Shown here piece by piece: positions 6,793-63,507 of a stretch of 64,000 bases of DNA. The notes under the pieces were generated by a model. The model searched no databases and was not told the DNA's origin. It saw nothing but the letters and a program-made list of their open reading frames with translations. This DNA is from Apostichopus japonicus. Taxonomy: Eukaryota > Echinodermata > Holothuroidea > Aspidochirotida > Stichopodidae. The DNA is taken from assembly GCF_037975245.1 (NCBI RefSeq), contig NC_092568.1, positions 8,319,001-8,383,000 on the forward strand, given 5' to 3'. Both the position numbers and the translations under genes were made by a program. The number at the start of each line of letters is the position of its first letter. The first letter of the stretch is position 1.

Positions 6793-7881
6793 ATGGAGCC
6801 CATACAAGAAATAACAATACCTGTTGACCAGTACACATGGAATCTAACAGCCGAAGACGTATTAAACTTTCCCCTTCCTAAAACCTTCCAATCATTCCTG
6901 GATCTGACGTTTCTGATCGTTTTTGTCGTCGTCGGATCCCTGGGGAATATGTTAATAATCGCCGTTTACCTCAAAAACCTGCGACGCAAACAATCGACTG
7001 CCAATCATTTTCTGTGCAGCTTGGCGATGACTGACTTGATGGTGTGCATGGCGTTGATCCCGGCCCACATCTACTTGGAGGTGGTTATGATGGACCGTCA
7101 GATAAACCGACTGGAGTGCAAGATCACCATGGTCTTTTGGCTGCAGACGCTCCTGTGTTCCAGTTGGATCTTAGTCGGTATCTCGGTGGACCGCTATTAC
7201 TCCCTCTGTAAACCGTTCGACATGGGTATTCAGATGAAACTGGTCAAACGGATCCTATTCTGCATATGGCTGTTTTCCGTCGTGGTCGCGATACCGGCCG
7301 TGGCCTACTACGACGGGCCGGGTTGTTCCTACGTACCGGGCCAAGGGACCACCCTCCGGGTTTTCCTCGTAATGTGGAACTCGACGCTGACCTTATTTTT
7401 ACCTCTGGCTATCATTATTGGAGCTTATCTCAGAATATTCTGCTTACTTTCCAAACGGAACCGGACAGCCAAGTTTCAATTAGGTCGCGGGCGGCTGATG
7501 CACCAGACCAGATATGTGGTAGCTAAACGGCTTCTGCTCGTAATATGCGTCTATACGCTGTGTTGGTTGCCGAGGACCATATTGGAAATTTTCTTTGCAA
7601 TAACGACACAGACGTACTCGCGACTTTCGTTTGGTGTCTACCTCTGTACCTGGGTGATTCCTTACATGAACTCAGTTCTTAACCCACTGCTCTACTCCAT
7701 GATCAATCCTTCATTTAGGAATCAATGCTGGGAGATCATAACCTGTGACTGTTCTAAGAAAGTAGCGTACACAGCCGAGAGTTGGATTCATAGGGCGGCA
7801 AACGGTTCCTTTGGACAGAGTAGCTCTCAGAAACAGAGTAGCTCTCCTAGAACTAAATCCTTTCCTGGGACATGGGTCTAG
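6793..7881 (+). CDS. Rhodopsin-family (class A) G-protein-coupled receptor, intronless
   Basis: One uninterrupted ATG-to-TAG frame encodes 362 residues, a normal length for a class A peptide receptor. The N-terminus has a possible N-glycosylation site (NLT, residue 17). Seven hydrophobic segments follow: TM1 with GN (GSLGNML), TM2 with LAMTD, TM3 with a conserved Cys (LECK) and the DRY motif as DRYYSLCKP, TM4 with a W (CIWLF), a Cys in extracellular loop 2 (GPGCSY) to pair with TM3, TM5 with a conserved P, TM6 with CWLP, and TM7 with NPLLY. The tail is Ser-rich (SSSQKQSSS). It should sit in the plasma membrane and signal through heterotrimeric G proteins. The ligand is not recognisable. The coding sequence is richer in G+C than its flanks. 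It may lie inside a PARP1 intron on the opposite strand. Confidence 0.9.
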   Translation: MEPIQEITIPVDQYTWNLTAEDVLNFPLPKTFQSFLDLTFLIVFVVVGSLGNMLIIAVYLKNLRRKQSTANHFLCSLAMTDLMVCMALIPAHIYLEVVMMDRQINRLECKITMVFWLQTLLCSSWILVGISVDRYYSLCKPFDMGIQMKLVKRILFCIWLFSVVVAIPAVAYYDGPGCSYVPGQGTTLRVFLVMWNSTLTLFLPLAIIIGAYLRIFCLLSKRNRTAKFQLGRGRLMHQTRYVVAKRLLLVICVYTLCWLPRTILEIFFAITTQTYSRLSFGVYLCTWVIPYMNSVLNPLLYSMINPSFRNQCWEIITCDCSKKVAYTAESWIHRAANGSFGQSSSQKQSSSPRTKSFPGTWV

Positions 7882-30160: not shown

Positions 30161-33100
30161 TTAAGACCTTGAGAGCTTTTCAAAGAATGCTACTTTAAGT
30201 TTAGTCAGCAATCCACCTCTGCCTCTCTTGCTCTTTTTCTGAGTGTTAGTGTTAAATTTAGCAGACTTCTTTGAGCTTGACATGGTTTCAAACATCTTAA
30301 TACGGTTTCTAATATTAAACTTTTTCTTTGGACTATCATTGTAAGACTGAATTGATTCAGGTTGAAGCGGGACAGCTGTTGCATTTCTTATTTCTTCAAA
30401 ATGGAGGATGGTTTCCTTGGTATCACCATGCTCTGGTATCTTTTCATTACTTTCTTTGGCTGCAGAAATCAAGGATTGATTCAGTTTAGGTTGAAGTTGT
30501 TCTTTGCTCACTTTGTTGATCTCTTTAAAATGAAGGATGGTCTCCTTGGTATCACCATGCTCTGGTATCTTTTTGTTATTTGATTTGGCTGCAGGAATCA
30601 AGAAATATTGATTCAGTTCAGGTTGAAGTTGAACTTTGCTCACTTTGTTGATCTCTTCAAAATGGAGGATGGCCTTTTGAACATCCCTATCCTGTTGCAT
30701 CTGCTCATTATCCAGATTGGCTGCAGGAATCAAAGCTGAAGATTTCTCTTCAACTGCAAATTTTTCAAAGAGGTGAACTGCTGAAGACACTGATACATCT
30801 TGGGTGAATGCTGAGATGGTCGGTTGCTTGATGAATGATGTCGAGGAGGTATTGTTGAAGAAGCTGATTTTCTCTGATATGTTCTGACGAGACGGGTCTT
30901 CATATCCACTGGAGACACTGGAGATGCTGAATGTATCATCTAGTGATGAGATGGAGCCTTCGCACCCCAGGGCGGAGTCCTCAGACAAGACTTCATTTTC
31001 ATCTGGCGGGGAAAAAATACTATTCTGACATTCAGTCATATCTTAACTGTTGGATAGTTTATTATATTTTTTATAATTTTTAATATATAATTTATTAATA
31101 TTTTGAAGCAATTTAGATTTTATTGATTTTTTATGATTATTGGGTCAGTGATTTTACCAAACCATAACTCAAAACATGGTAAGAATTGATCAGGCTTTAA
31201 AAGACAGTTGACAAGGTTGTTCCATCATATGAACATTAATTATTGAGTGAATAATGGTTGTTGTTTTTTAGTCCAGATCATTTTTAACATAACACAAAGA
31301 TTACATGCAAAAGAGAAAGGTAAAATTGTTAAATTATTATACCTTCTCTTCTTATTACCTGATGGGAGCTTAGTATCCATATAGTATCATATATTTATAA
31401 TGGTACTAATTCAATCTTAGTTCAGTTCATATTATAGCTGCCTTGCATGTTTGCATTTATGCTGCACCTTGTCAAGCTTGCATAGAATTTTCCAATGTGA
31501 TATCAAGTAAATCCTTCTCTTAAGTGGTATGTAATGTTCCTTTAAGATCATTTGTTTATCCATGCTATTACAATTACTGTGGGTATCTTTACTCTCAACC
31601 CTGACATAGAAATGGTTAATAAGGACTGCATGCAAACTGAGGATTGACTAGCTAATAGTTATTAAGTACATAGGATTTGCATTCATCAGGTCACTGGATT
31701 TGAATCTTACTATAGCCAACAATATCCTTGCATCTTTAAAAATTTGTGAATCATTTCTGTGTCAATTTTCTCTTCATTATTTCTTCTCTGCAGCATAGAC
31801 CATGTCTACTGATTAAGCTATTCTTTATGATATTTCATGAGATTAGGTACATTACTTCAAAATGGATATTAAACCACATCACTAAATATTGGAAGGAGTA
31901 TAAAATATTACTGACCTGAAGGTGTTTCCTCAAACTTTAAATCCCATGTTAAGGGGTATTGTTCCATGGGCCCTGGTGATATGACATCTGCTTGCTGTAA
32001 CTCATCCAGTCCATCACTGGTGCAAGCCACAAATCCTGATCCAGTATCATCTGTTGTATGGTCAATGACGTTGACGTTTTCACAGCTACTTTCTTCGGAG
32101 AAAGTCTCTCTTATATCACTTACAGATGTCTCAACTGTAGGTCCTTGCACATTGGTGGATAATATGCTTGGAATCAACATGTCAGTTAGAGCTGAGGATT
32201 CCTCTTTGTTGTCTTCCTCTGAATCAAGGTTTGATGCGGTTAATTCAGACATTCTTGGGGTAACAGAAATTTCAACTGTAGCATCTTGTACCGTTGGAGG
32301 TGTTTCCTCTTGTTGTGAAATGTTACGAACATGTTCTATGCTGTTGTTTGGAGGAGACGTTGGTTCCATGTAGTCTACGAGTGCCAGTCCCGATTCTCTC
32401 AACTCAGCCAATGGATCATAAGGCCAAGCAAGTTCATCAAGACCTCGATCCAGTGACATCTCCTGGAACATTCCATCAGCCATCATCATCAAAGCTGAGA
32501 GGTTATTCTTTCCTGCTACCTTGGGAAGGGATCTCTTCAGACTCTGACGGACTGAGTACATCAAGTCTGTGTCCAGATGGACAGGTTTCTCAATCTTTAC
32601 TCTAGGCTCTGGTTTCCTCGCTCGAAGTTCTGCCTTCGTCTTGTGTAAATTAACAAGAGCTTCCAGGTATCGGTCACTGATGAACTGTCGTCTCATGCCT
32701 TTAGCAATGCAAGATTCCAAGAGCTCTTCCTTCAGTGTTTTGTTGCATGAAGTGTCATTAGAAGATGAAGAGCTGTTGTGCATTCCATCCTCTGAACACT
32801 GATCACGTTTATACACAGAGGCATTGTTAGCAGCATCTGGGCACCATTCCGGATCAGTTTCAGGGGTGACTTCTTCATCAGATGGTGTTGATCTTACTTC
32901 TCCCACAATTCTTTGTGCCAAATCAGCTGGTTTAACATCTGTTGTCTTGAAAGGAACAGAGTAATTCAGATTATGTACAGATTTCTCACTTGAGAGATCC
33001 GCACAACTTTCTGAATCAACCTCATCCATAACAGTGTCCTTACTTGCTGTTTTCTTGTCATCTGAAAGCTGGTTAAATGAGTCAGCAGAAAGAGAAGAGC

Positions 33101-36100
33101 TGTTGTCCATCCCATCTTCTGAAAGCTGATCAAGATTATACACAGATGCATTGTTAGCAGCATCTGGGCACCATTCCAGATCAGTTTCAGGGGTGACTTC
33201 TTCATCTGATGGTGTTGGATTTACTTCTCCCACACTTCCTCCTTGCTTGAAATAAGCTGGCTTAACATCTGTTGTCTTGAAAGGAATAGAGTAATTCAGA
33301 TTATGTACAGATTTCTCACTTGAGAGATCCAAACACCTTTCTGAAGCAATCTCGTCCACAATAGTGTCCTTACTTGCTGTTTTCTTGTCATCTGAAAGCT
33401 GGTAAGATGTGCCAGCAAATAGAGAAGAGCTGTTGTCCATCCCATCTTCTGAAGTCTGATCAAGATTATACACAGATGCATCGTTAGCAGCATCTGGGCA
33501 CCATTTCAGATCAGTTTCAGGGGTGACTTCTTCATCTGATAGTGTTAGACTTACTTTTTCCACACTTCTTCCTTCTACCACATCAGCTGGTTTAACATCT
33601 ATTGTTATGAGAGGAACAGAGTCATTCAAATTATGTACAGATTCCTCACTTGAGAGATCTGAACACCTTTCTGAAGCAATCTCATCCACAATAGTGTCCA
33701 TACTTGCTGTTTTCTTGTCATCTGAAAGCTGGTAAGATGTGTCAGCAAAAGGAGAAGAGCTGTTGTCCATCCCATCTTCTGAGAGCTGATCAAGGTTATA
33801 CCCAGATGCATTTTTAGCAGCATCTGGGCACCATTCCTGATCAGTTTCAGGGGTGACATCTTCATCTGAAGGTGTTGGTCTTACTTCTCCCACAATTCCT
33901 CTTTGCTCCAAATCAGCTGGTTTAACATCTGTTGTCTTGAGAGGAACAGAGTCTTCCAGATTATGTACAGATTTCTCACTTGTGAGATCTGAACAACTTT
34001 CTGAAGCAGTCTCCTCCACAACAGTGTCCATACTTGCTGTTTTCTTGTCATCTAAAAGCTGGTAAGATGTGTCAGCAAAAGGAGAAGAGCTGTCATCCAT
34101 CCCATCTTTTGAAAGCTGATCAAGGTTATACCCAGATGAGGTATTAGTAGCCCCTTGGTACCTTTCCAGATCATCAGAAGATTTGACAATTCCCTCATCC
34201 TGCATGTTCAAACCAAGATTAAGGACAGGCGTTTCACCCACGCAAGTTTTGGCCAACTGACAATGCGAACGTGGAGACTTCAGCTGACCTCCATTCTCAT
34301 GCGCTGTTGGGTTTTCTTGTGGGAATCTATCAATTACAGGCTTAGATTCTCCAATGATTGAGGAAGGCATGTGAGTATGTTTGTTATCTTCTTTGGAAAT
34401 GTTCACGTTCTCAGTCCCTGAAGGAGTTGATGTATTGACCATAGGCAGTTGTGACTCCGCAGATTTAGTCACAAGTTGGCTTCTGACATTAGACGTTGGT
34501 TCCATGTAATCTACGAGGGCCAGTCCCGATTCTCTCAACTCAGCCAATGGATCATAAGGCCAAGCAAGTTCATCAAGACCTCGATCCAGTGACATCTCCT
34601 GGAACATTCCATCAGCCATCATCATCAAAGCTGAGAGGTTATTCTTTCCTGCTACCTTGGGAAGGGATCTCTTCAGACTCTGACGGACTGAGTACATCAA
34701 GTCAGTGTCCAGATGGACAGGTTTCTCAATCCTTACTCTAGGCTCTGGTTTCCTTGCTTGAAGTTCTGCCTTCGTCTTGTGTAAATTAACAAGAGCGTCC
34801 AGGTATCGGTCACTGATGAACTGTCGTCTCATGCCTTTAGCAATGCAAGATTCCAAGAGCTCTTCCTTCAGTGTTTTGTTGCATGAAGTGTCATCAGAAG
34901 ATGAAGAGCTATTGTCCATTCCATCTTCTGAAAGCTGATCAAGATTATACCCAGATGCATTGTAAGCAGCATTTGGGCACCGTTCCAGATCAGTGTCAGG
35001 GGTGACTTCTTCATCTGATAGTGTTGGACTTACTTCTTCCACAATTCTTTGTGCCAAATCAGCTGGTTTAACATCTATTGTCTTGAAAGGAACAGAGTCG
35101 TCCAAATTATGTACAGATTCCTCACTTGAGAGATCCCAACACCTCTCTGAAGCAATTTTGTCCACAACAGTGTCCATCCCATCTTCTGGCAGCTGATCAA
35201 GGTTATACACAGATGCATTGTTAGCAGCATCTGGGCACCATTCCAGATCAGTTCCAGGGGTGACTTCTTCATCAGATGGTGTTGATCTTACTTCTCCCAC
35301 ACTTCCTACTTCTACCACATCAGCTGGTTTAACATCTGTTGTCTTGAGAGGAACAGAGTCATCCAGATTATGTACAGATTTCTCACTTGAGAGATCTGAA
35401 CACCTTTCTGAAGCAATCTCGTCCACAGCAGTGTCCTTACTTGCTGTTTTCTTGTCATCTGACAGCTGGTTAGATGAGTCAATAGAAAGAGAAGAGCTGT
35501 TGTCCATCCCATCTTCTAAAGGCTGATCAAGATTATACACAGATGCATTGTTAGCAGCATCTGGACACCATTCCTGATCAGTTTCAGGGGTGACTTCTTC
35601 ATCAGATGGTGTTGGACTTACTTCTCCCACAATTCTTTCTTGTTCCAAATCAGCTAGTTTAACATCTGGTGTCCTTGGAGGAACAGAGTCATTCAAAGTA
35701 TGTACAGATTTCTCACTTGAGAGATCTGAACACCTTTCTGAATCAGTCTCATCCATAACAGTGTCCATACTTGCTGTTTTCTTGTCATCTGAATGCTGAC
35801 TAAATGTTTCAGCCAAAGGAGAAGAGCTGTTGTCCATCCCATCTTCTGAAGGCTGATCAAGATTACACCCAGATGTGGTATTAGCAGTATCTGGGCATCT
35901 TTCCTGATCAGAAGATTTGACAGGTCCCTGCATGTACGAACCAAGATTAAGGACAGGCATTTCATCCATCTTAGTTTTGGCCGTCTGACCATGTGAATAT
36001 GGAGACTTCAGTTTCATTCGGTATCTTGCAAATGGGTTTGCAAACTTAGCAAGATCTTCTTCTTCTTCTGAATCTGAGTCCTCATTTTTGTAGGCCATAT

Positions 36101-39100
36101 ACCTAAATATTTTCTTCATCTTCACCTCAGTAAATTCCGTTCCCTTTCTATTACTACCTGATGATTCCTTTTGAGCTTGCTTTTTGCTCTCCTTAATAGA
36201 TGCCAACAGCTCCTTGTAGACATTTGTGTTCCTTCTCTGAGAAACTGGGGCAACATTGCGTCCACTGACATGACGATCGTTTTGTTCGATAACGTCCTTG
36301 AATGTAGTCTGTTGGCAAAGCAAAAGTACCAATAAGTGGCATATTCATATTTTCTTCCCCTTCATAACTTCTACACATCACAACTGATAAGGATAAGGCA
36401 ACTTTTAAATGATGAAGATATTGTATCTGTATCTTTTCAAAGTTTGCCAACAAATCACAGACTTTGATAAGTTGTTCATATGGCATGTCAATTTAACTTA
36501 TTATTTACCTTTTTGTTTTGCCTATACAGTAACACAATTGTCATCAGAATTAACCAAGAATATGCTAGAAAGCCAAATAGTGGTCACTCATTTTTCTGTC
36601 ACTTTCAACACATTGGTACTCTTTTGAATGGTCTAATAGATACCCCCACCCCCGCCCCAGTCCCGCTCAATGCCAGGAATAATTTTTTTTAAAACAGTAC
36701 TTATAGGCAGTACCTTTTCAGCAAACTATAATTTCAGACCATAAACTTACTACATAAGAAAAAATATGGCATACTAGGAAATATAGCAAAAAGTGTCCTT
36801 AAGAGTCCTACAACCTAAAAATAGGGTCATGTGCACAAACTTAGCTTGAGTTAACAAGAATTTTCCGCCTGATTCTGGGAAAAATCAATGCAAATAGTAA
36901 ATTGGACACTTAAATTGTAAAGTAGCTTGTCATATATTTTCACATCTCATCATGTCATCAGTTAACTCTTGAAGGGCTTTGTGACACAAAATGAAATGAG
37001 GTTCATTAGAGTTAACTTTACAAGACATTTCTGTCTGATCCTGGGAGAAATGAATGCAAATGGTTAAAACAGACATTAAGATTGTAAAGTCCTGCGTCAC
37101 ATATTTTCACATTCCATAATTTCATCAAATAACTCTTGTAGACGTTTGAGACAAATATAATGAGATTGACACCTTTTGCTGATTACTTCCTACTAGCAAT
37201 AAATAAAAGTTTTGTCCAAGGCTCAGCTTGCAGATTACTTACCATTGCAGGAGAGGATTTCTCCCCATCAGCTGGTGGGCTCAGCTTTTCTGACTTGACC
37301 ACAACTTTCCGTTGACCAGTTGGTTGAGATGCGGATGTTACAGCAGTGAGATTTGTAGCAACTGCACTGCTAATGCCATCTGGTACTGTAAACCCATGCC
37401 TAGACATGACTCTGTCCATAGAAAGAAATTATCAAATGAACAATTATTAGTCATTAATTCTAATCAACTATTCTAACATTTATTGCTAGGCAAGTATTCT
37501 TCATTTGAGTTTCAAAAAGGGCATGATCATGAAATAGGTCTTACAATATCATCCCTGGAGAATCCTGGATAATAGTATAATCTGCAAATCATTGAAATAG
37601 TGTTGTGTTTTTTTTTTTTTGGGGGGGGGGGGTAATTGCATTGCTAAAAAGAATGGTTCGGTTAACTAATTGATTTTACTGTATATTTCAATGCAATATA
37701 CATAAATGTTAGTGTAATTCAGAAAGCCTGAATAATCTGATTTATGTACAATGAAGAAGAAAGGTATTATTAGAACAACACAACAGTGCTACATCATGAC
37801 CATATCCATTAAAGTAATTAAATGGCTCCAAATATGCTGAAAATGTCATATAACAGTCAGCCATGTTCAGACTACAACATGTACCTAGCTCATTTAGCAT
37901 GGGGGAGTCAGAATTAATTCAGACTGTAGTTTTGGATCAAATTTAAACAAGCTTAATTAGCATGTTAAAAACTTGGGGACAATGCTGATGAGAATGTACT
38001 TTTATTTTAAATTTCTAGAGCAATATGTGAATACAAAACCACTTACTTCTTCATGCACTCATCCAAGAGAGCCCTCAACTCGCTCCTAACATCTTCCCGA
38101 CTTCGACCTCTCAGAGAACGGGTCTTCACCAGCATCATTAGGTTTTGAAACCTTGGATCTGCCACGGACTCCTTCATAAATTCACTGATCTATTATGGAC
38201 AATGAAACCATGAATTGTTAAAAATGACATCATTGAAGATTACCATTGATTACAGTAAGAGTAGACAGTCCCTCTATCATCCCCACAAAGAACTTACTTT
38301 CTACCCACTTCACTCTCTTCTGATTACAGGGTATAAATCTGTGCAATTGTGCATCAGCTTGGCAGATTTCTATAGCAACTTTGGCATGCAAAAGTGTACC
38401 AAAAATGTATTTAATTCTTGGAAATAGGAATTTTTTTTAAAAGAAACCACACACAACCACTCCTAGTGGCAATAGAATGCCTTGCAAAATTGAAGTTCAT
38501 CAAAACACCATGCAATTGTTACAGAATTAACAGTATTTTAGTTATTAATATTCTTTTTTATTTTATTGGCATGTTTTTTTTTTTTGGGGGGGGGGGGGGT
38601 TAATGAGGTCGGCAGAGAAGGATCAGATTGACTTAAAAGACTGTTGGGTATGAGTCTAAGTTAAAGGCTCAAATCAACTTTGCATCAAATGGTACCTACA
38701 AGAAAATGGTACCAGATTTAACTTAGAATATATGTCTTAAAGATCAGAATGATTGAAAGACTGTTCTTATTGACAATTGCCTTTCTGGTCTCATTATATA
38801 TTTCCACAAAAACTCTCAATTTTGAGTAAAATATTACTTTGATGTACGTGGTAGGGCATATATCAGTACCACATAAATTAAGTCAAGCCTGTCACTACCT
38901 AGCCTACACTTGCTATCCTTAGCCTGCTACCCCCCCCCCCAGCCTCCCCTGCACACACAAAAGCCACTCTCCACTGCTTCCCATCTATTTTAAAATCATG
39001 GCACTAAGTGTAAACATTTCAACCATGCACACAAAAGTCAAATTTATTTATTTGAAAGGCATAAATCCATGCAAATATGTAATATTCTAAAAAATGTAAT

Positions 39101-44361: not shown

Positions 44362-47300
44362 CTAGGTCTTGTCCTGTTTTTCATTCACATCAACTGCTAA
44401 ACTTTGCTGGAAACAAGAAGAAAAAAATGAAGGTTATTTACAAAAATAATAATAATAATAATTAATTAACAGTTCTTATATAGCGCAACTTACAATAAAG
44501 TCTTGCCGCGCTGTACTTAACCTTGGTCATTGGTAACTTGTCACACCTACACACCAAAGTGTGCAAAATTCAAACAATCTCTCCTGGGGCACCACAGTGC
44601 ACCACAGCCACATGTCCCCTGGGGGACTTCCCATAGGGTGCAGCCACAAACCGGCGCACGCAACTATATTTACAAGTCAGTGAAATCACCTCGCAAGTCC
44701 TCATTTATACACCTGGGAAAAGAGAGGCAATGGAGATAAAGTGCCTTGCCCAAGGAAACAACGCAATGATCTGGCCAGGGCTCGAACCTGTAATCCTTAG
44801 ATCACAAGTCCACTGCCTTAACCACTTGACCACAATGCCCAAAAATGAGCAAGGATCTTCTTCTATACTACATCAATCCAGGTCATAGATGATGATCTAA
44901 TTACCCTTAAATCTCATTTGTCTTCTCTCTAAATTTAGCATGTCTTACCAAAATTTGAATTAAAGTTTCAAAAGAGCTCTGCAAAGCAAGAAACAAATGC
45001 TCTTAGGGTGGCAGTAAAATGCATGTTGATTTGTGAACATTAGTGACCATTATTGTGACTTTTTAGCAGATTTTGGGGTGATATTACTGATGACCTTAAA
45101 GCAAGAATCACGCAGGGTTGGGAAAGGCTTCAAGGTTAATGATGATAAAACATACTCAAGAATGACAGCATCAAATGGGAACATCATCTACTTTATTGCA
45201 GTGACAGAACTTTGGTGAAATTTTAACAAAGCCACTTGAACATGATAATCCTTGAGACCAATATTTGTGACTTTTAATATCAATGAAGTTTAAAAGTATA
45301 CACAATTTTTTATGAGGTAAGAGTAGGTACCTGTGCTTCGAAAGGATAGGAATATGAACCAGGGGATTATGGGAAGTGGATCGAAATGATATTAGCTTTG
45401 TCATAACAGAAATATTTTGAAGGTATTGTCAGTTTGGGGTATACTATATCATTGTAAAAATCATTTTGGACTATCTAGCATAGCATTGGGAATAAGTTAA
45501 ACTGTTCTGCATAGACAATCGATGTATTGAGTGTTCTGTGACTCTCAGCCTGCTGACTGAACACCACCCGACTCAACCTTTATAACATGGATATTTGAGG
45601 ATATCCCGGTAATGTGCATGTGCTTAAGGTTATGCCTAATCAGGTATTTGCCAGTTTTCAGTTGTCTGCTTCATTCGTGGAAATTCAACTCGTCGTGTTT
45701 CCCCGAATGCATTTGATCTAAAACAGGCATTGGTTGTTAAAAAAACAGTTGTTGTGTTTGCTCGTCAGTCTTTTAGTATGTGCTGATCAGTTGTAACACT
45801 ATCGGTATTCACAAGGTAAAAAAAAACTCGGCCATGACAGTCAAGTTGAGTTGGGTCAAATGTGGCGTACTATGTCCGGCTAAAATACACTACAAATTCT
45901 TACATTTTCTTTCTCAATCTCCTTCACCTCAGCTTTCCTCTCCACTCTCGGACTCTTCAAGACAGCCTTGGCTAAGGGATTATCTGCTGGCATCGCCACA
46001 TCCATATCTGGTGGCGGTCTCTTCAGAGGCTTAGGGTACGGAGGAAGCTGGCCCTTTGTTTTCGGATTCAAGTCTTGTTGTTTCTAAAAAATAAAATGCA
46101 AAACTTAATGAAATTTTGTACACCTCTGAGTCTTCTGACTTCCTGTTTGCAAAATTTAACAATGAAAAGAAAATAAGTGAAACTATTCACAGATCACACT
46201 TGAACTATGAACCTCATAATGTACTAGACTTCAAAGGGGCAGGCTTAAATAAACACGTTTCCTAGCATTTTGGTCATCATCAAGTCATGCCTAGTTATAC
46301 TTTGTAACATAGTCCCTTTTAAAAAATTTCACCAATATAACTTCAACAATACCTAGACAGAAATTTCAAAATTATTTGTGAAAATATCCTACAGAAGAAT
46401 CTCTTCAATATTAAATAATTTCACTTTTTTTGTTGTTGACCCTTTTGAACTTACTTCTTTCGGCAATTCTGTTGGTGGCTTGTCTGGGTTGCCATGGACA
46501 ACAACCATCTGTACCAATGCTTTCTTGCAAGTCATCCGTAGCCGTTTATTGATACCATCCATGAGAGTTTCCCCAAACAATCTCTTGAAGGCTTTCCTAA
46601 TCAGTGCCATATCGACCTGTAAATGAAAAACAAAACGAGTTTAAATGAGTACATAACACCGTAGCAACCCACCTGATGGAACTAAATAATGACAAAAAGG
46701 TTACTTTGATAAAATGGCCACAAAGTTTCAAACATTTCAAAGAGTGTTTGTATCAACATTTTTAACTTTACAAGTTTTAGCCTGTGGAAAAATTTCATCA
46801 TTTTTGGACAACCTTTGTCTTCCCAAATTTTGATGGTGACGTAAACTGGGCAAAAAAGTCTTCGACGAACTTTGGTTCCATGAAATGATGTTTTTCAGTC
46901 CCTTTAATTTGAACATGTTTGGATTATTGGGCTGTGACAGTTTTGTTGTCTGAACATTTTTTCTCTTTGAAGAGACAAAGGCAATTGAAGTAATACACTA
47001 ACGTGCATATTGAAATTGTATCGATGATAGAAATCCCAACTTAAATATCATCACAGAATGAAGGCAAACAAAATATTTAAATTTCATTTAACATATTGTT
47101 ACATCACATTACCCCAACTGCAGTTTGTCCGATATTATTAGATGTGTTAGACTGAATATTGAATATGCAGTTTTCAAAATTGTACTTTCTCCGAAAGAAA
47201 TGAAATCATCAAAGAATGAAGCAATTACAAGTTGCTTTAACAATTTCATGAGATAAAACAATGATCTACAAAAGAAAAAGAAAAAAGTGGTACTGACCTC

Positions 47301-50300
47301 TGACCTCATGATAATTATGCGCATAACTGTCTCTTCGTCACCGCTTGCTTGGAGATTTACCTGTATCTGCTCGGCAAGGAATTGAGGGCAATCACTCAAA
47401 CATTTCACTGAAATTTGAAATCGAACAAAGATAGATTGAATATAAAAAAAGTGTAATCTCTAATGCTTAAAGTTCATCTTTGACTGTTATATATGTATCA
47501 GTAAGGGAAATATCTTTGATGCTTGCATAAAGATGCTTGTTGAAGTGTTCGTAAGAGTGGCCATTACTGGACCGTCTAGCAAACTTGGGGCAATATTGAT
47601 GATCTCAAATGAAAAGCTTTATATTTTAATAGATGATATTGTAGGCATTCGTAGGAAAAAACATAAACATTTTCTCGTCATTTGATGCAATTTCAACAAA
47701 ATCTTGATCAAAGTAAGAAACCCTACAAGATTTCTTTTATGAAATCAAAATCAACTGGAGATTTAAATTTAATCTTGCCAAAGCACTTTTCCCCAAAAGT
47801 CTTGATCACAAATCAATAACATTCAGAATGGTCCTTATTATTTCAAATTTAGTTAGTCTAAGTAATTGTATTGTTTTATTAGTCTAGTTATCAAACAGTA
47901 TCAAAATAATCTAAGAGCCATTTTTGTGCATATGTTGACAGTGACTACTAAACAGGATTGCAAAGTGAGCTGTGGTAATTATACTCACCCAATGAGACCA
48001 TAGCATCACGGTAGTCTGCCACGAGCAACCTCTCAATCTCCTCCAGAGAGCTTTTACCAGTTATCTGTTTTCAGGGAAACCAAAAGCAAATGATTAACAT
48101 AATTTGCCAAATATTACAGAATGAAAGAAATGCAAGCTGTTGATGTCCATCAACAGATGTAAGAAAGGAGAAAAAAACAAATCCAAGTTGGTTAGCAGTG
48201 AAAATTGTCACTGTATGCCAAATTAAATTGAAGAATTAGTGTTAGAAAAACCTTGCTAAATTTCCTCCAAATTTGCTCACTAGTATATGCAACTTCCTGC
48301 TATTGTTTGCAAAGCAGAAAACAGAGCACACCAAATACATACAGGTTAAACAAGCATGACAAAAAAAAAGTAGGGATGTTCCTCCTTTTTAAATTGGTCC
48401 AAAAATGAATATAGAATAAAGGGCTAAAAAATGTTAACAATAAAACTTTCAATGTGACATCCACAAAACATAGCTCTCTCTCTACAAGGTAATAATGTTA
48501 CCTGTTCATAATTGTGCAGGACAGTTACGATATGACTCCAGCTTGCTGTCTGTAGTAACTCAGCCATTTTTCCAGAATCTGCATTCCAACGGTCTTCTTC
48601 TTGGGTTGCTATCAGCTGCTCGGTGTCTTTATCAGCTGTTTCTTTGTCAATACTTGTAGATTCTGATCTGGTACCCTAAACAAGGAAATATGGATTGATT
48701 AAATCACCGTTTCCATTCACAACAAAATCAATAAATGCACCACTACAAGCAGGGCATTAATCAAAAACAGGAAATAATGGGTCTTGTATGTGAATTTGGT
48801 ATCCCTGCTCAAGGGAGGAATCCAATGCAAGGGTCGGATGGTGGGGGGAGGGGGGGGGAGTGTTTTCTTGATTGCAAGTTCTCACATGCATATGGTATCG
48901 ATTTTCAGCTTTGAAATGTAACTTCATTGACACAATATTGTTTTGGTGCATGTCTATAATCCAGCCATACAACATTATTTGTTTCATTACAATGACAGAA
49001 CAATGCCTACTCACTTAAACAATGTTATCTCTTCACTACTGCATAATGTTGCCTAAAACCCACAATGACCATATGATATTGAAGGACATTTTACATTCTC
49101 TTAATAAAGGAACATATACTGAATTATCCATACAAAGAAGTATTTAAAACAAGTAGTCTTACCTTCACTATGGCAAGAAGCAAGTATCTCAGCTGACCTT
49201 TGACCTCTGCTTTAATATCCTCCTCAAGCTCTATGCTGTATTTTGTTGCATAAGCTGACCTTATTGCACCTAACGCCTGTTAGTGAAGAGAGTGTTACAG
49301 ACATGCGTAATGTTTTATCTAAACATATATGTATATATAGCACTAACAATAGCAGGACTTGTAACAGACACGCAGAAATGCCCCCTCGACATGATTAAAT
49401 GCGTAAAAGTACCAGCAAATGCAAGATTTCCTAAGTTACTCACAAATCATGCAGTTCTAGTTTAAGTTTTAAGAAAGTGAGTTTCAAAATTTACAGTAAT
49501 TAACTAGAACATACTGATTAGAGTGACCACAATTTACATCAACATCTACATTTATGTGTCAAAAAAATTTCAGAACAAGAACAAACTATAAAAAAAGGCT
49601 ATAGACACAGACTGTACTGCCCAGACCGAAACCACCATCCACAATGTCTTAAATCAATTCATCCCACTTTCTCTCCATGCTAACACCAACCCCCCCCCCA
49701 CCCCCACCTGTAAATTAATATTATTTTCTGTATCACCTTCATCTAGGTACATCTCATGCCTCACCATCATGGAGAGTACTGCATCTTCTTGAATGCATAG
49801 AGAAATATAGAAGAAAAATTAATTTCTTTGCTGAGAACTTACCCCATTGTTTCTTGTACATAATACCTCAACCAAGGTTTCTGTAAAAGGCCCTTGACCC
49901 TGAAAACAAAAAGGAACAAATACTTTCAGGAAATGTATTACCACAAAATGTCTGCTATGTATTGGGACTTGTATTCAAAGAGGTAGTATAGTAAAGCTAA
50001 GACATATTCTTTATGGGGGCAAATTATCAATAATAAGCTGTGTTTGAATTGACAATATCCATTAGACCTCTCTGTGAAGAAGCAGTCTTTATTCAAACTT
50101 CGGATTGATGAGTACGGGTGATGGTGTAGTAACTATTACGATTCTTACGATACAAAGAAATCACATTGAAACAATACCATGACATTTACTGTTTAAAACC
50201 CTTCTGAAGATTAGCTTTCTTTTCTTTGTAAAAAATTGTCCTGAACAGATCAATACCACGTTGGTAACTGTTAACTTAGAAAATGGGACCACAAGATGGT

Positions 50301-53300
50301 CGATATTCACCCCTAGACATTAGGAAAACAATTTGGGGTTGTGTGTGGGGGGGCCAATGAATGCTATGTGGTTTATTAAGATTTGGAGTTGCAAGTTGAC
50401 CACCAAAAGAGAGGGGCAAATGACTTTTTGGTGCTTGGAATTAAGTATTTGGGGTTGAAAGTAGACAATAACCAAAGAAAAATGGTTGTATTGACTAAAT
50501 TTTACATCAGGAAATGTTCATGGAGTGGGGGGAGGTAAATTTCTGTTTCATATCTTTGCCCTAAATTGATTTCATTCCAGGATTTTAATTGTCCCAATAA
50601 AGGTTAATAAACATGGTTTGTCGGGGTCAATGAAGGATCAAGAAATTCCATAAATGTATCAACACCTGGTTTAGAATCTTTCTGAAGATTAAGTATTTCT
50701 CCTTCTCAAGAAACTTTTCTCTACATACATAGTTTACAAAAGACAACGGTCGTAACGAAGGAAAACAGTAAAAACCTCAACTATGTTTATAAATTTTTAA
50801 AAGAGAAAAATTTATATTAAAAAAAAAAAAAAAAAATTTTTGTAAAAAAGAACATTGATGAATATTTTATGAAATTGTGTGAGCAAATAACAAACAAGGA
50901 AAACAAACCTTGAGAGCAGAATGGATGGACATGGCATCATAATCCTGTCTGCTGGTCAGCAGAGCTGAGGTCAATGTCTGGAAGTCATCATCTAGCTGGG
51001 AAGACAACTCCTCCTCAAGATTCTGGAAATAAATATTGATCTTGTTTAAAGGGTGTGAAGACTCGTGCAAAATGAAACGTCTAATGCCGGTTATCTGACC
51101 TAGTTTCGAATGAGGTGTAACAGAAGTGTTAGACACCACCATCGATCCCAGAAAATACACTCACAGCTTGCTATCGTCGGTAATTAGACACTAGTGTGCA
51201 TACAGTACATACAGCTGGGGTTAATACCCACAGCACAGTGTACAAACGGGATGGACATCTCAGGTCCAGCTAAAGATAACAAGGTATCACTTTTCATTAC
51301 TGTCTGCATTTTGTAGCGACAAGAACAAAACGTCACTTGCAAGCAACAAAAAGTTAACTTTTTCAGATGGCAGCACGCGGTTTGGGGCGAGTCTTCAATA
51401 CCTTTAAAGATCACATCAATACTGGCCACAAATTTTCATTCACTAACGGTTCACTAAGATCTTGTATCAAAAGTGTGTTCGTGGATGTTTCTGACCATCC
51501 AAATGATTAAATTACATTTCGGAAGGTTAAGTTAGAATATTAAAATAGTTCAATCAAAGGAAATGTTATTTAGGTTGGTGTTTAACTTCTTGGTTGAATT
51601 TGGAAACATGGTTTTTCATAATCGTGTTAGTCATAATAAACTTCAAATCAAACACACCCATTCCCCTCCCCCACCCCCCCCCAACCCCCGTCCTGTGAAG
51701 TGCTGATATTTACCAACAGGCAAGAAACATTTTGAATAGCACACTCCACAAAGGTACTTATTAGCCATGTTATCACACACACACGTTTACTGACTACTGA
51801 ACAGTTAATTCCATACAACAGAGGTAAATTTACATCTGTGGACACAAACAATGTTTTCCTGAATTAAGTCTACACACTTACCAGACCAAACTGTTCTTCA
51901 AATTTGACTTTGGTCTGCTGTCTCTGTGAAAACTTTCTTTTGGCTAAAGTATTAGTTACGACTACTTCGGGTTTTCCTGTTGAAAATAAAACAAAGGAAA
52001 GAAATCAACATCTTCCTTTTCCCTTCTTGTAGTTGGTGGGCTTGGTAATATGATGAACCACATGCAGGATGTGAGCAACAAGGGGTCAGAATAATGACCC
52101 CCTCCCCCCCCCTCACAGCATTTCCCACCTCCTTCCTCATTCCAGAATGAAATGATTCATGTACCACACAAAGATCAAGGTGCTCAAAATGTTACAATGC
52201 AAACACTTCTCCTGTAAAATTTGTTGAACATTTTTTATTGTTTAAAAATATATTTCATGAGCATTTTTTGGGGATAACTTTAAATAACTTTAAATTTCTG
52301 AACCACCACTTTTAAGTAAAAGCTCCATGAGACAATGGATACTAAGACACAACATTACTCACCCATGCCTTTGGTTGCCTTAAAGAGTTTCACAGCTTCA
52401 TCTTTCTCGTCATAATGCGCAGCTTTGGCAGCAGCTTCTTTCTGTACGAAAAAAAAAGAAATAACAGAGGCTAGCTGCATAAAGGGAAACAAAATAGACA
52501 AATCCTTCAGCTTTCTGAACTAAGAAAGACAAAGGTAAGCAGACCCCCCTCCCCCCAACACTAGGGGGAAGGGAAATCCATGTATCCCGTATAAGTTTTA
52601 CAGCAATGAGTTTCTGGGGGAACAGGATTGAACATTGGTCGGAATCTTGCCACCCTCCTCCCCCTCCCATACTCCCCAATTACAAACATGTGTACAGCTG
52701 TAGGGGTTTTCCTGGCAAGGGAGACTGATGTTGTATTATTAATATGTGCAGTGGCAGAACTTCTGAGGTCAAGTTTATGTCATACAACTCACCCTCAAGT
52801 GTTCAGGTGAGCATAGATAACATATATTGTTAGATCATAACTAATATACAGTAATGAATATATCTTTGTGTTTAGTATAGTCATAGATCTTAAGTGTTAA
52901 ATCATAACTAATATAATGAATATATCTTTGTTTTTAGTATAGTTATAGATCTCAGGTGTTAGATCATAACTAATATAATGAATATATCTTTGTTTTTAGT
53001 ATAGTTATAGATCTCAGGTGTTAGATCATAACTAATATAATGAATATATCTTTGTGTTAAGTATAGTTATAGATCTCAGGTGTTAGATCATAACTAATAT
53101 AATGAATATATCTTTGTTTTTAGTATAGTTATAGATCTCAGGTGTTAGATCATAACTAATATAATGAATATATCTTTGTTTTTAGTATAGTCATAGATCT
53201 CAGGTGTTAGATCATAACTTATATAATGAATATATAATTTGTATTTATGAGTGATGAATTCACTGTCAACAGTTCAACCATGCTCATCCAAATTCTTTCC

Positions 53301-56300
53301 AATATCATTGTAAATAATCTAATGTGGGATTTCAGTTTGCAAAAGATTTGCACAACACTATTTAGTTTTAACACTCCTTTTACCTTTTTCCTTTCTAGTT
53401 CTTTCTTCCTCTCTGTTCCGAGAACTGGTAACCGTGGCAGCCTCCGCCTTCTGGTTTTGACAGGTCTTTTTGAGATTTTTAGTTCATCCTAAAATAAACA
53501 CCCACACAAGAAGCAAAAAGGAGACACAGAATGTTATCAGCGACAGAAAAAAAGGTAATTAATTTGACATTCTTGATAGTATTGTATTCTTACCGGACTG
53601 AAACTCTGTTGTTGCTAAGGGGATAATAAATTGTCTCCCAGCAACTAAGAAATCTCAACAGGGTTCTCAGCACTTTTTTTATCTTTCCATTGTAATGATG
53701 TTTATAACAAACATCTACAATTATTAATTATCCGTTCAATAAAGCACACATTAAAATATCTGGGTTTCTTTCTGACTTCAACAACTTCGTATCAAGAATA
53801 TTGCAAAGCCCACTTCTGGATACAGTGGTGATTCCTTGGGTGTGTGATTTTCTTTCGCGATGAACGTTAATTGTAAGCAATATGGTGGATACAAAGGGCA
53901 GTGTAACAAACACAAGCATTATTGAACGAGTTGTAACAATAGTTTCCATATGTGTCCCCATCACAACAAGACAGTATTTGACATTTTCATATCTTTTTTT
54001 TCCTTTCTTTTAGAGAAGGGTCTGTGACGATGTAAAGTTTGATATAAACTAAGAGATAACAATATATGTAAATCTACAGTCTGTCCTCATTATTTACAAA
54101 CTAATCAAATTTCTTCTGTAAGCTCTCATTAAGGGATTCATTCAAGGACATGTTGATTGAACAAACAAGAGAAGCCAAACAGAACAAAACATAGAAAAAC
54201 AACTGTGCTGTGCCACATCCTAATTACTATCGTTTTGTTCAATTCTTGGATGGACGTATCTGTGCATCAGAAATACACACTATTGTACACTTAAAAGGTA
54301 TTGCCCCCAAGTATGCTAGAAAGTCGGATAATGGCCACCCTTGCTTAAAATTTCAAGAACAAAACAAAGCATTTTAATGCCTCTAAAAGTATTTATCACC
54401 ACTGAGGCACAAAATTGTCTGTTTAAATAATCTTAAATGTCTGGGACTAATGTAGAGGACCAGAGAGTCAAGGAAAGGACTATTGAAAACATCTAGCATT
54501 TTTTGGGGGGGGGGGGGGGAGAGAGGAGGTGGACTATGACATATTAACACTATATCTGCATGTGATGTATTTTAGGGATAATATGTTGCTAATATCTATG
54601 TCTTTGTTTCTGAGTTATGAAAATTTGGTATGTGCATTTCCCACTACCCACCCCCCCCCCCCTCCCCCATATACATCAAAACAAGTTTGCTTTTTAATGT
54701 TTCTTACCATATTTGGCATTCTATCGTCATCATTAATAGATTTCTCTGAAACAGCTGCTTGAGAAGGGGCAAGATTGGAACTGGTCTCTCCTATAGTTGA
54801 TACCTTGTCATAGTGAGCTCTCTTTTGAGTGATAAAGGAAAGAAGAAAGAAAATTAAACATGAATAGATCTTAACTTCATAACAGAGAGGATCGCTCTCC
54901 ATATGAATTAGTCAGGAAACGTGTTTATTCTATTCCTATCAATGTGTGCTAGCTGTGACAGTATTAATATCTAGTGATAATCTAATAACATGCATAGCAG
55001 CCATTGTTATATAAAACAACTAATTCTGATGTTGTTTAATTAATCCTTCTTTTAAAGTTTTAGAGATATAATATTCACCGTTTTTCTTTTATGCCTGTCT
55101 TCTGCGTAATAAAATAGAGCCTCTTGCTCGTTCATTCCCCGAACATCCAACTGAAAGTTCTTTGTAGCACTGTCTTTCAGTTCCAAGAAGTAGTTATGCA
55201 TTAAATATTCATCCTCCTGGGAAGTTGAAAACAAAAGGTAAAATTATGGATTAAATGACATACTTTAACTGTAGTTTTTTTGTTCGTTTGCCCGTGTTCA
55301 AACTGTTGATCTCCAACAATTCGACAATGCTTGCATACCTTCGACCAATCACATCAACAAAGAGCAGAACTGCACGACTAACTACGACTCAAATCAACTA
55401 AACGATTGTGAGCTGCATAATTGTGGATATTACTGCAGTTTGAACGAGCTTACAACTACAAATGATTACTATGTAGCCAGTCGTTAAGTGGAGTTTGATT
55501 CAGTATGGTAAAACACAACAGGTTTTTCAAACAGGCTATCTGCATTGGTAGTCAAATGTGCAGTTTTGTTCCTGGCTACAACTGCTCAGTTTCAACAAAT
55601 ATAACCGATCAGTGAGAAATATTTTTTACACATAGCCTATCCCAGCACCAGTCACACAACACAGCATGTTCAGAGTCCACTCGCCAGTCATTCATCGTGC
55701 TGGAAGTTAGCTGTACATACCAACATGGGTCTTGAGGACTACCAAAAAACTGGATAGATCATATGACAGTTCAGTGCACAATGTGTTTTTCTCAGTCTTC
55801 TTCAGGCTAAATTATTTGACCCACTTGAGGTGATCAACTAATTTTTGTCTCACAAACTTCGAACCTTCCATTGATACTATAAACATGTTTCCAAGAAAAA
55901 AATATGTTTTGGTACGTTCAAAGTTTCTACTGTGCGTCATGGACAAAAACTCTAAGTTTGCCAAATCCAATTACAACCTGCCCAAACTTACCCACTCATC
56001 AGTATCATAGTGTGATGACCTATTCTGCAACCTCTTCAGCAGCTTCTGATTTTCTTCCTGGATTTTCTCCTTCTCATCGTTAAGCTTAAGCTCGTTAAGA
56101 CTGTCGGTAAGATGAATGAATTAAGAGGGGTCAAATACATTTGTACCACAAAAGGAAGGGCCGCCAACTAAAATAAGCTGAGCTAACCGTATAACTTATA
56201 GAAAACTGACTTGTAAGTTATAAACAAAATTTTACAGACATATACTGTAAAATCATATAAAAAAGACATATAAAATCAAATTAATTTTTCAAGTTAATTT

Positions 56301-57525
56301 TGCCTTTTGTTGACCAGAACAAATCAGAGGAAATATCTCTATGGTAAAAACTGACCTTAATAAGGCTTTAAACATTTATATTACTTTGTTCTCATTTGAG
56401 TATGTAAGTATATTACAAACTCACTAATATCCGTTTCAATATAGCCTGCCATTTGTCTCTACCTTTGAAGATACATTCTTAATGGTATCTTGCTTGGGGT
56501 AACTACCCCCTGTTGTTTCCCTCAAAATTGTTGTTAAACAAGGACTTAACATTTTCAGGTAGTACTCCTATGTATATAATATACTCACCTCTTTGAATGA
56601 AGTTCATAATCATAATTCCAATTGTCCAGTTGTCCCGTTGACCTCAAAACATTTGTCAATTTGGCCAGTAGGATTCTATTTTCATAGTCTATTGAAGCTT
56701 GTCTTTCTTCTTCACTCTGGAACAGTAGTTACAAAATTTATTTTATGAATCAAGCATGAGACAACACATAAGTGGACAAACAGCATACATAATTCCTTCA
56801 AATTTCCAGATAAATCCTCGGGCCACAGATCCCCAATGTTGCAGCTTGTTGCACCATTTCGGTCTTTACTACGTAGAGCAGATCTACTTTACATGTTCCC
56901 AAAAATCTTTCAATATTATTGCTCTGATATGACTTTCTGGCAAACTTGCAAAATATATATCTGTGATTTTAAATTTGGCCAAAGCTGGATTCATGAGTAA
57001 TTTACAAAACCTGGGTTTGGATAAGAAAACAAATTCTTAGTTCTTATTGCAAACAGTATACAAAAAAAATCACAATATTACAATAACATGTTTACATGAT
57101 TGAAACTCACCTGCATTTTCTTCAAATTTACTTTTAGATGTAAAAATGATTTTGGCTTCTTAGTATCTAGCCCTGATCTCATTGCCTTTTTCTGAAAATT
57201 AGGAAAAAGATTATTTGAAGACATTTAAACTTACAAATCAACACACACACAAAAATTGAATAACATATATAGGGAAGAGTATAATTTTGGCAAATAATTT
57301 AAGTTAACAATTACCTTCTATCAGCCTAACTTTAGGTTAGGTCAGTCTAATATTAAACCTTACTAACTACTAATACTATTAGTAACAGTTACTGTGTTAG
57401 AGTTAATTTTGGCCTACCTTCTTTACGTGTAGCTCATATGCTCTCTGGTTCCACCTTTTCTGCAAGATGTTATTAGCTGTTGGAAATCCTGGCATTGTTA
57501 CTTTTTTAGCTGTATCACTTAACAT
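44362..57525 (-). CDS. CFAP97-domain/annexin fusion protein, 662 aa, 18 exons
   Basis: Exons, minus strand: 57525-57418, 57191-57111, 56716-56589, 56100-55992, 55216-55079, 54821-54708, 53488-53384, 52441-52363, 51976-51882, 51022-50909, 49899-49843, 49276-49163, 48675-48502, 48064-47989, 47407-47298, 46616-46455, 46083-45904 and 44406-44362. Every junction is GT/AG with matching phase, giving 662 codons plus TAG. Residues about 20-142 match the CFAP97/hemingway family (ILQKRW, IDYENRILLAKL, LDNW, LLKRLQNRSSHYD), which is linked to cilia and flagella. Residues about 268-580 are four annexin repeats (DEAVKLFKATKGMG; VEVLCTRNN; WSHIVTVLHNYEQITG; VMRIIIMRSEVDMALIRKAF). Calcium loops are degenerate. 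A Pro/Lys-rich tail follows. A membrane- or axoneme-associated ciliary role is inference. Confidence 0.9.
44446..44840 (-). mobile_element. tRNA-derived SINE
   Basis: On the minus strand the element opens GGGCATTGTGGTCAAGTGG, with an A-box-like TGGTCAAGTGG, and has a perfect B box GGTTCGAGCCC at 44788-44778, as in RNA polymerase III promoters inside tRNA genes. A body with CCTTGGGCAAGGCACTTTAT follows. It ends GCGCTATATAAGAACTG and an (ATT)n tail at about 44446-44463. It lies in the last intron of the CFAP97-annexin gene, same strand, about 40 bp before the last exon. It does not fold as a full tRNA gene by eye. Confidence 0.75.
46455..52441 (-). other. Annexin core exons (8-16) of the fusion gene
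   Basis: Repeat 1 spans exons 8-10, repeat 2 exons 10-12, repeat 3 exons 13-15 and repeat 4 exons 15-16. Exon lengths 95 and 114 nt (exons 9 and 10) and the combined 171 nt of exons 11 and 12 agree with the lengths I recall for the corresponding vertebrate annexin exons (95, 114, 91+80). Canonical GxGTDE loops are replaced by GMGKPE, GQGPFTE, RWNADS and QASGDEE, so calcium-dependent lipid binding is doubtful. Confidence 0.88.
51046..51407 (+). mobile_element. TTAA-flanked MITE, copy 3 (354 bp)
   Basis: The element 51050-51403 is bounded by TTAA on each side and is in the same orientation as copies 2 and 4. Its left end lies about 25 bp from the acceptor of exon 10 of the CFAP97-annexin gene, so the insertion reaches into the usual branch-point zone of that intron. 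Confidence 0.85.
52830..53232. repeat. 62-bp tandem repeat, about 6.5 copies
   Basis: The AT-rich unit begins atcataactaatataatgaa and ends ctcaggtgttag. The first copy is most diverged (extra 'acag', 'cttaag' for 'ctcagg') and the middle copies are nearly identical. It lies in the intron between exons 7 and 8 of the CFAP97-annexin gene. Confidence 0.9.
55992..57525 (-). other. CFAP97 domain exons (1-4) of the fusion gene
   Basis: Exon 1 gives ANNILQKRWNQRAYELHVKK, exon 2 LDTKKPKS, exon 3 ASIDYENRILLAKLTNVLRS and LDNWNYDYE, and exon 4 SLNELKLNDEKEKIQEENQK then LLKRLQNRSSHYD. This follows the order in small CFAP97-domain proteins: a basic N-terminal stretch, then IEYEN...L..KI, W.....SLN, ENQ.(I/L)LKRL..R..HYD. 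The helical pattern indicates a coiled-coil-like domain. Confidence 0.85.
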
Positions 57526-58351: not shown

Positions 58352-58790
58352 ATTCTACTTAAGTAGAATTAATTCCACTTAAGTAGAATACAATTAAGCT
58401 TAAGTGAAATGAATTGCACTTAAGTAGAATTGCATTTTACTTAAGCTTAATTGTATTCCACTTAAGTGGAATTCATATTAGCTTAAGTTCAAACGGTTTT
58501 TGTCTACATCGTATTTTACTTAAGTAAAATACAATTCTACTTAAGTAAAATACAATTCTGCTTAAGTAAAATTCAATTCTACTTAAGTAAAATGCATTCT
58601 GCTTAAGTAAATTCAATTCTACTTAAGTAAAATGCTATTCTACTTAAGCAAAATGGCTTTTCAATTTCACTTAAGCTAAATTGCATTTTACTTAAGTGAA
58701 ATAGAATTACGCTTAAGTGAAATGTGATTGGTCAATTTATTTCACTTAAGTAAAATGCAATTTAGCTTAAGTGAAATGTGATTGGTCAAT
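58352..58790. repeat. CTTAAG palindrome array A (about 19 sites)
   Basis: CTTAAG recurs roughly every 20-24 bp, usually as (T/G)(A/C)ACTTAAGT(A/G) embedded in AATTC/AATGC spacers, for example ctacttaagtaaaatgcatt. Many units are longer imperfect palindromes such as ATTCTACTTAAGTAGAAT. The array ends in two copies of gtgattggtcaat. The spacing is near two helical turns, which would put sites on one face of the DNA. Confidence 0.9.
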
Positions 58791-59680: not shown

Positions 59681-60140
59681 TTCAATTCCACTTAAGCTAA
59701 ATTGTATTTTATTTAAGTAGAATTGAATTTTACTTAAGTAAAATGCAATAGTATTCTACTTAAGTAAAATACAATTCTACTTAAGTAGAACACAATTTAG
59801 CTTAAGTTAAATTCAATTTCACTTAAGCTTAATTGTATTCTACTAAAGTAAAATACAATTTTACTTAAGTAAAATTCATTTAGCTTAAGTGAAAAAGAAT
59901 GACATTTTTACTTAAGCTAAATTCAATTTTACTTAAGTAGAATTGCATTTTACTTAAGTAGAATACAATTAAGCTTAAGTGAAATTGAATTTAACTTAAG
60001 CTTAAAAGAAAGTGGTAATTTTACTTAAGTGGAATACAATTAAACTTAAGTAAAATGCAATTCTACTTAAGTGCAATTAATTTCACTTAAGCTTAATTGT
60101 ATTCTACTTAAGTGGAATTGGTTCTATTTAAGTAGAATAA
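59681..60140. repeat. CTTAAG palindrome array B (about 18 sites)
   Basis: The same degenerate palindrome as array A, enclosed between the internal terminal-repeat copy (59655-59677) and the right terminal repeat (60148-60170). A few units have lost the core (atttaag, actaaag). The mixture of CTTAAGCTAAAT, CTTAAGTAAAAT and CTTAAGTAGAAT variants is shared with array A. Confidence 0.9.

Positions 60141-62375: not shown

Positions 62376-63507
<1,132 letters not shown>

Follow-up and report, generated by a model that had tools for sequence, protein, structure and literature searches.

Introduction

Many annexins carry unrelated N-terminal parts. In diplomonads, annexins have been placed at the axoneme: annexin 3 of Spironucleus is seen on the outer doublets, an interaction with tubulin is described for alpha-14 giardin (PMC4863580), and the flagellar alpha2-annexin of Giardia has a proposed role in linking axonemal microtubules to the membrane (PMC3150270; here and below, the literature is cited from excerpts of the papers). 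At the base of mammalian multicilia, annexins are cross-linked to actin and keratin (PMC13082021). Flies and mice need members of the CFAP97 family to keep axonemes intact (PMC10425847, PMC7444823); where these are lost, axonemes are damaged in fly neurons and in the sperm of both flies and mice (PMC10425847). CFAP97D1 is classed as an external doublet protein in mammalian sperm (PMC13406575; figure legend of PMC11779644), and mouse Tssk6 knock-out sperm lose it along with TSSK6 and EFCAB3 (PMC13066092). Here, we analyzed a stretch of 64,000 nucleotides from the holothurian Apostichopus japonicus (contig NC_092568.1, positions 8,319,001 to 8,383,000; hereafter the window), which contains what appears to be an animal-type gene encoding a CFAP97 domain and an annexin core without canonical calcium motifs in one chain. 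Each of the two domains is familiar; what we rate as new is their union together with the loss of the calcium sites.

Gene structure and domains

The gene lies on the minus strand from 57525 to 44362 (window positions throughout), and its 18 exons join into 1989 nt, i.e., 663 codons specifying 662 residues (predicted mass 76 kDa), and the only stop is the terminal one. Every one of the 17 introns has a GT donor and an AG acceptor. Boundary phases are consistent at every exon junction: 14 of the 17 introns are in phase 0, and for each of the remaining three the phases of the flanking exons agree. Translation is modeled from the ATG at 57525, ahead of which the open stretch has no other methionine; a further 5' exon is possible. 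Immediately 5' of the gene, there are two arrays (58352-58790 and 59690-60140) of approximately 21-base units around the palindrome CTTAAG.

The N-terminal part of the protein is a complete CFAP97 domain. Among Pfam matches listed to E 1, Hmw_CFAP97 (PF13879) covers residues 33-131 with 65.9 bits against a cut-off of 25.6 (E 5.7e-18), and the profile is matched over its full length (1-100 of 100). When the N-terminal 188 residues were compared to PDB sequences, the top match was 8snb_4T, named Cilia- and flagella-associated protein 97 (E 1.4e-26), with an alignment from residue 11 to residue 153 that reaches into exon 5; 8snb is a structure of sea urchin sperm doublets. Of the ten matches listed to E 10, the best five all have CFAP97-type names, the other four being the CFAP97D1 chains of 9v10 (E 3.6e-17) and 8otz (E 8.6e-17), 9e2g (E 8.7e-11), and 9e78 (E 1.5e-8). 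Identity to the aligned stretches of three CFAP97-type chains is 37-38%.

The C-terminal half contains four annexin repeats. Pfam Annexin (PF00191) matches in four stretches with a total of 138.9 bits against a cut-off of 25 (E 5.6e-41). In a scan of single repeats against the same cut-off, repeats I (42.7 bits), II (62.6 bits), and IV (37.0 bits) pass and repeat III falls just below (22.8 bits, E 9.9e-5). Alignments to PDB annexin chains extend through all four repeats, end to end, with 102/301 residues identical to 6b3i, 103/307 to 1w45, and 82/299 to the first half of 1m9i (27-34%). Exons 9 and 10 measure 95 and 114 nt, as do two conserved internal exons in the annexin genes of vertebrates.

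The coding character of the exons was assessed by a leave-one-out test of codon usage, in which each exon was compared to open intron windows of the same length, obtained by 4000 random overlapping draws from the introns of the gene itself. Training used the other 17 exons together with two further open frames from the window, the one at 31911-36344 being without family support. Fourteen of the 18 exons reach P < 0.05, and exons 5, 6, and 7 outscore every open intron window drawn (counts in Table 1); the codon score of exon 7 is 0.17 in its own frame and 0.12 in a second frame. Exons 2, 9, 11, and 18 do not stand out (P values in Table 1). The first three of these are supported by homology, and all that supports exon 18 is its splice site and the stop. 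A chance in-phase joining of unrelated exons was rejected, given that spacer exons 5-7 score above all the open intron windows drawn.

These results agree with the initial annotation of this DNA in coordinates, strand, number of exons, and phases, as the splice join with its one terminal stop and 17/17 GT-AG introns indicates. Both of its domain assignments are upheld by Pfam, including the search for a CFAP97 profile match, whose absence was to count against the fusion. The fused architecture that it proposed is supported by the continuous frame, by in-phase coding exons, and by two domains that each exceed their Pfam cut-offs.

Beyond the annexin core, the protein ends in a Pro/Lys-rich tail (15 Pro in 87 residues), to which Pfam assigned no family at E values up to 10. 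The model is unproven at its 3' end, because exon 18 has no codon signal and no poly(A) signal follows it: neither AATAAA nor ATTAAA was found on the minus strand within 1.46 kb past its stop. Without exon 18, exon 17 would extend by seven residues to a stop at 45880. Intron 17 contains a tRNA-like Rfam match on the minus strand (44767-44839; 29.1 bits against a threshold of 29, E 0.056), perhaps the head of a SINE.

Calcium sites of the annexin core

The calcium-binding loops of the four repeats were compared to those of three reference cores, 6b3i, 1w45, and the first half of 1m9i. In the AB loops, Gly-Thr is found in 0/4 repeats of the core, versus 11/12 loops in the references (the remaining one has Gly-Ser). 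Instead, the AB loops of repeats I-IV read G-M-G-K, G-Q-G-P, W-N-A-D, and A-S-G with one residue absent. The acidic position of the DE loops is occupied by Gln, Glu, Leu, and Arg, respectively, and is thus kept in one of the four repeats, namely repeat II. The DE loop of repeat IV reads KRLRMTC where the references read DTSG. Summed over the eight loops, the charge is 0, versus -10, -4, and -6 in 6b3i, 1w45, and the first half of 1m9i; the annexin core as a whole has a pI of 5.4. The type II pattern G-x-G-T ... D/E is therefore not found in a protein that does have four annexin repeats. The changes fall on the calcium-binding positions of a core whose identity to the references is otherwise 27-34%.

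Judged by its sequence, this part of the protein is an annexin-fold homolog and not a canonical calcium-binding annexin. A role as a calcium-operated membrane switch is improbable, because Gly-Thr is missing from all four loops and the acidic partner from all but one. The initial annotation had spoken of an annexin-type membrane scaffold. The four-repeat core of such a scaffold is present, whereas calcium-dependent membrane binding should not be assumed with all four type II loops degenerate.

Proposed function and alternative explanations

The reading that we favor, and hold to be somewhat probable, is that the protein acts as an axonemal adaptor, with the CFAP97 domain on a doublet microtubule and the annexin core as a constitutive contact module that has no calcium switch. 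In a motile cilium or sperm flagellum, the CFAP97 domain would anchor the protein at a fixed site on the doublet microtubule, in the way that CFAP97D1 is anchored in mammalian sperm. The basic and probably flexible spacer (approximately 110 residues) would project the annexin core outward, and the core, its calcium sites decayed, would contact a neighboring axonemal protein or the ciliary membrane constitutively. The sequence shows the gene model, the two domains, and the loss of the canonical calcium motif; expression as one protein, ciliary location, docking on the microtubule, and a partner for the annexin core are steps that we infer.

The two halves are connected by exons 5-7, which amount to 357 nt or 119 residues and run in phase, much as the initial annotation had it (approximately 120 residues without a break); exons 6-7 are basic (pI 10.3). 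A single fused gene, with or without a short form limited to the CFAP97 half, appears likely. One gene is likelier than two because exons 5-7 are coding-like and no in-frame methionine occurs between exon 6 and annexin repeat I: exon 6 has Met 223 and Met 226, exon 7 has none, and exon 8 has only Met 287, which is inside repeat I. It is quite unlikely, in our judgment, that two adjacent genes on the same strand, one for CFAP97 alone (exons 1-5 or 1-6) and the other for an annexin (from exon 7 or 8 on), have been read as one through a chance agreement of phase. Such a split would fit the stop that is met eight residues past exon 5 (55052), the ATTAAA (55040) and AATAAA (54929) behind it in intron 5, the total of two AATAAA and three ATTAAA on the minus strand from exon 5 to exon 9, and the end of the 8snb_4T alignment within exon 5. 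However, AATAAA occurs no more often than expected between exons 5 and 9 (two seen, 3.8 expected from base frequencies), and intron 5, with 257 bases, offers scant space for the end of one gene and the promoter of the next. If the split falls before exon 8, the coding-like exons 6 and 7 have no place. A stand-alone annexin gene would have to include exon 6 or begin with a first exon not seen here, since exon 7 has no methionine and Met 287 is within the first repeat. Intron 7, which separates the spacer exons from the annexin exons, carries a 62-base tandem repeat in 6.7 copies (52828-53247).

Two other readings concern what the annexin core does. The protein might be a calcium-regulated membrane annexin to which the CFAP97 domain is a mere address tag. 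The core is complete by profile, unrelated N-terminal parts are well established as common among annexins, and the flagellar annexins 3 and 12 of diplomonads retain calcium loops (PMC4863580), all of which would suit this reading; so would the acidic cap residue in repeat II and the aspartates next to the cap in repeat I. With Gly-Thr in 0/4 loops and an acidic cap in 1/4, we nevertheless regard it as very improbable. Alternatively, the core could bridge the doublet to the ciliary membrane independently of calcium, by means of the basic residues of the former calcium loops and the basic spacer. In its favor are the neutral loops among acidic references, the basic DE loop of repeat IV, the high pI of exons 6-7, and the precedent of Giardia flagellar annexins as a proposed link from axonemal microtubule to membrane (PMC3150270). 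The core as a whole is acidic, however, the remaining DE loops are not basic (e.g., SQLDDDF in repeat I), and the reading is drawn from sequence, so that we consider the bridge unlikely.

Several observations weigh against the adaptor itself. A single mRNA spanning both halves is inferred, and the stop at 55052 with the two signals behind it makes an early-polyadenylated form with only the CFAP97 half possible. Some residual calcium binding is likewise possible, given the acidic residue that repeat II retains at its cap position and the DDD beside the changed cap position of repeat I. The spacer has no relative in PDB, where one chance match was obtained (E 1.1), and only a match below cut-off in Pfam. 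Judged by their names, none of the PDB annexin matches listed (best 60 of 83; 51 in a second comparison) stood out as an annexin of a ciliary structure. In Spironucleus, annexins 3 and 12, which are found in flagella, have four canonical calcium loops each, and annexin 13, which is described as having no type II sites (0/4) and an extra DndD-like domain, is located at an anterior structure and not in the flagella (excerpts of PMC4863580). In a Nematostella gene table, the annexin rows list the annexin domain only and the KIAA1430 gene has a separate row with a separate urchin match, and a fusion is not evident there. Finally, none of the 23 pattern matches of the full protein in viral contigs was confirmed, nor was any of those obtained with the CFAP97 alignment in viral contigs (124) and prokaryote genomes (96), scans in which the annexin half was not used alone. 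The lack of relatives in the viral and prokaryote sets is expected, because this is an animal gene; NCBIfam, a prokaryote library, also gave no family.

To our knowledge, the links between the axoneme and the surrounding membrane are poorly known at the protein level. If one chain fixes an annexin core to a doublet-microtubule domain, such a link could be tested structurally and by knock-out. The protein would further provide a clear example of an annexin core retained after the loss of its calcium motifs, with a reason for retention that can be guessed. A bolder and doubtful version is that the single polypeptide is a permanent, calcium-free strut, whose CFAP97 end grips the outer doublet and whose decayed, less acidic annexin end grips the ciliary membrane. 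If true, the links from doublet to membrane would gain a molecular identity in one animal group or more, and an independent fusion would have produced a parallel to the role that the flagellar annexins of Giardia are proposed to play.

Features of the gene and of the window

The exons of the gene are listed in Table 1.

Table 1. The CFAP97-annexin gene and its coding exons, in window coordinates. Codon usage is given as the number of open intron windows reaching the score of the exon or as the P value.
Feature	Position	Strand	Content and evidence
Whole gene	44362..57525	-	18 coding exons, 662 aa: CFAP97 domain, spacer, four annexin repeats, Pro/Lys-rich tail; exon join and Pfam
Exon 1	57418..57525	-	Start codon, residues 1-36; donor gtaggc; aligns to 8snb_4T from residue 11
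Exon 2	57111..57191	-	CFAP97 domain; splice join, Pfam, PDB alignment; codon signal weak, P = 0.17
Exon 3	56589..56716	-	Core of CFAP97 domain; splice join, Pfam, PDB alignment
Exon 4	55992..56100	-	End of Pfam CFAP97 domain; splice join, Pfam, PDB alignment
Exon 5	55079..55216	-	Spacer; first residues align to 8snb_4T (to residue 153); codon usage 0/289
Exon 6	54708..54821	-	Spacer; holds Met 223 and Met 226; codon usage 0/422
Exon 7	53384..53488	-	Spacer, Arg/Lys-rich; codon usage 0/508
Exon 8	52363..52441	-	Start of annexin repeat I; splice join, annexin alignments, single-repeat Pfam scan
Exon 9	51882..51976	-	Annexin repeat I; alignments, Pfam scan; codon signal weak, P = 0.10
Exon 10	50909..51022	-	End of annexin repeat I and start of II; alignments, Pfam scan
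Exon 11	49843..49899	-	Annexin repeat II, calcium loop G-Q-G-P; alignments; no codon signal, P = 0.47
Exon 12	49163..49276	-	Annexin repeat II; alignments, Pfam scan
Exon 13	48502..48675	-	Link of repeats II-III and first half of repeat III; alignments, Pfam scan
Exon 14	47989..48064	-	Annexin repeat III; alignments, Pfam scan
Exon 15	47298..47407	-	End of repeat III and start of repeat IV; alignments, Pfam scan
Exon 16	46455..46616	-	Rest of annexin repeat IV and start of tail; alignments, Pfam scan
Exon 17	45904..46083	-	Pro/Lys-rich tail; splice join, codon usage, composition
Exon 18	44362..44406	-	Last 14 residues and stop; acceptor present; no codon signal, P = 0.51; least certain exon

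Elsewhere in the window, a rhodopsin-type receptor is encoded in a single open frame on the plus strand (6772-7878; 7tm_1, E 5.8e-38). Pieces resembling a PARP1-type gene are found on the minus strand at 18428-18742 and 25801-26136, where PADR1_N is above its cut-off and zf-PARP, with 34.4 bits, is below its cut-off of 39.3. An open frame on the minus strand (25842-26315) overlaps the PARP-like stretch in another frame. A perfect 21-base repeat in 7.1 copies (26142-26291) encodes KEHVMSP units in this frame, and its match to a Pfam family of antifreeze fold has 20.9 bits, below the cut-off of 30. A 1478-residue open frame with internal repeats of 330 bases (31911-36344, minus strand) has no Pfam family above cut-off, and a near-perfect CAT microsatellite of approximately 60 units is found at 62986-63164.

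Comparison with known systems

No fusion of CFAP97 and annexin was found in titles or abstract openings of the open-licence papers listed by the searches, a set mostly without subscription journals. The claim of the initial annotation that the pair is undescribed is consistent with this search, whereas novelty and spread among species are not established by it, animal proteomes lying outside its scope; the pair may already be present, unremarked, in databases. Among the annexins of diplomonads (alpha-giardins; Spironucleus annexins 3, 12, and 13), flagellar siting, contact with tubulin, and loss of calcium sites together with an extra domain all occur, but separately. No single one of them unites the traits of the gene described here, as annexins 3 and 12 keep their loops and annexin 13 is not flagellar, and they are at most a parallel because their lineage is distant.

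With the CFAP97/Hemingway family (CFAP97, CFAP97D1, CFAP97D2), the protein has in common the match of its N-terminal part to the whole profile. The five CFAP97-family chains in PDB have 158-231 residues and could not contain an annexin core because of this length, whereas the domain here opens a protein of 662 residues. With four-repeat annexins (annexin A8, 6b3i, the halves of annexin A6), it shares a core that can be aligned end to end, at the level of identity given above for the three references. It differs from them in the approximately 265 residues ahead of the core, which include the ciliary domain, in the Pro/Lys-rich C-terminal tail, and in having Gly-Thr in none of its four loops.

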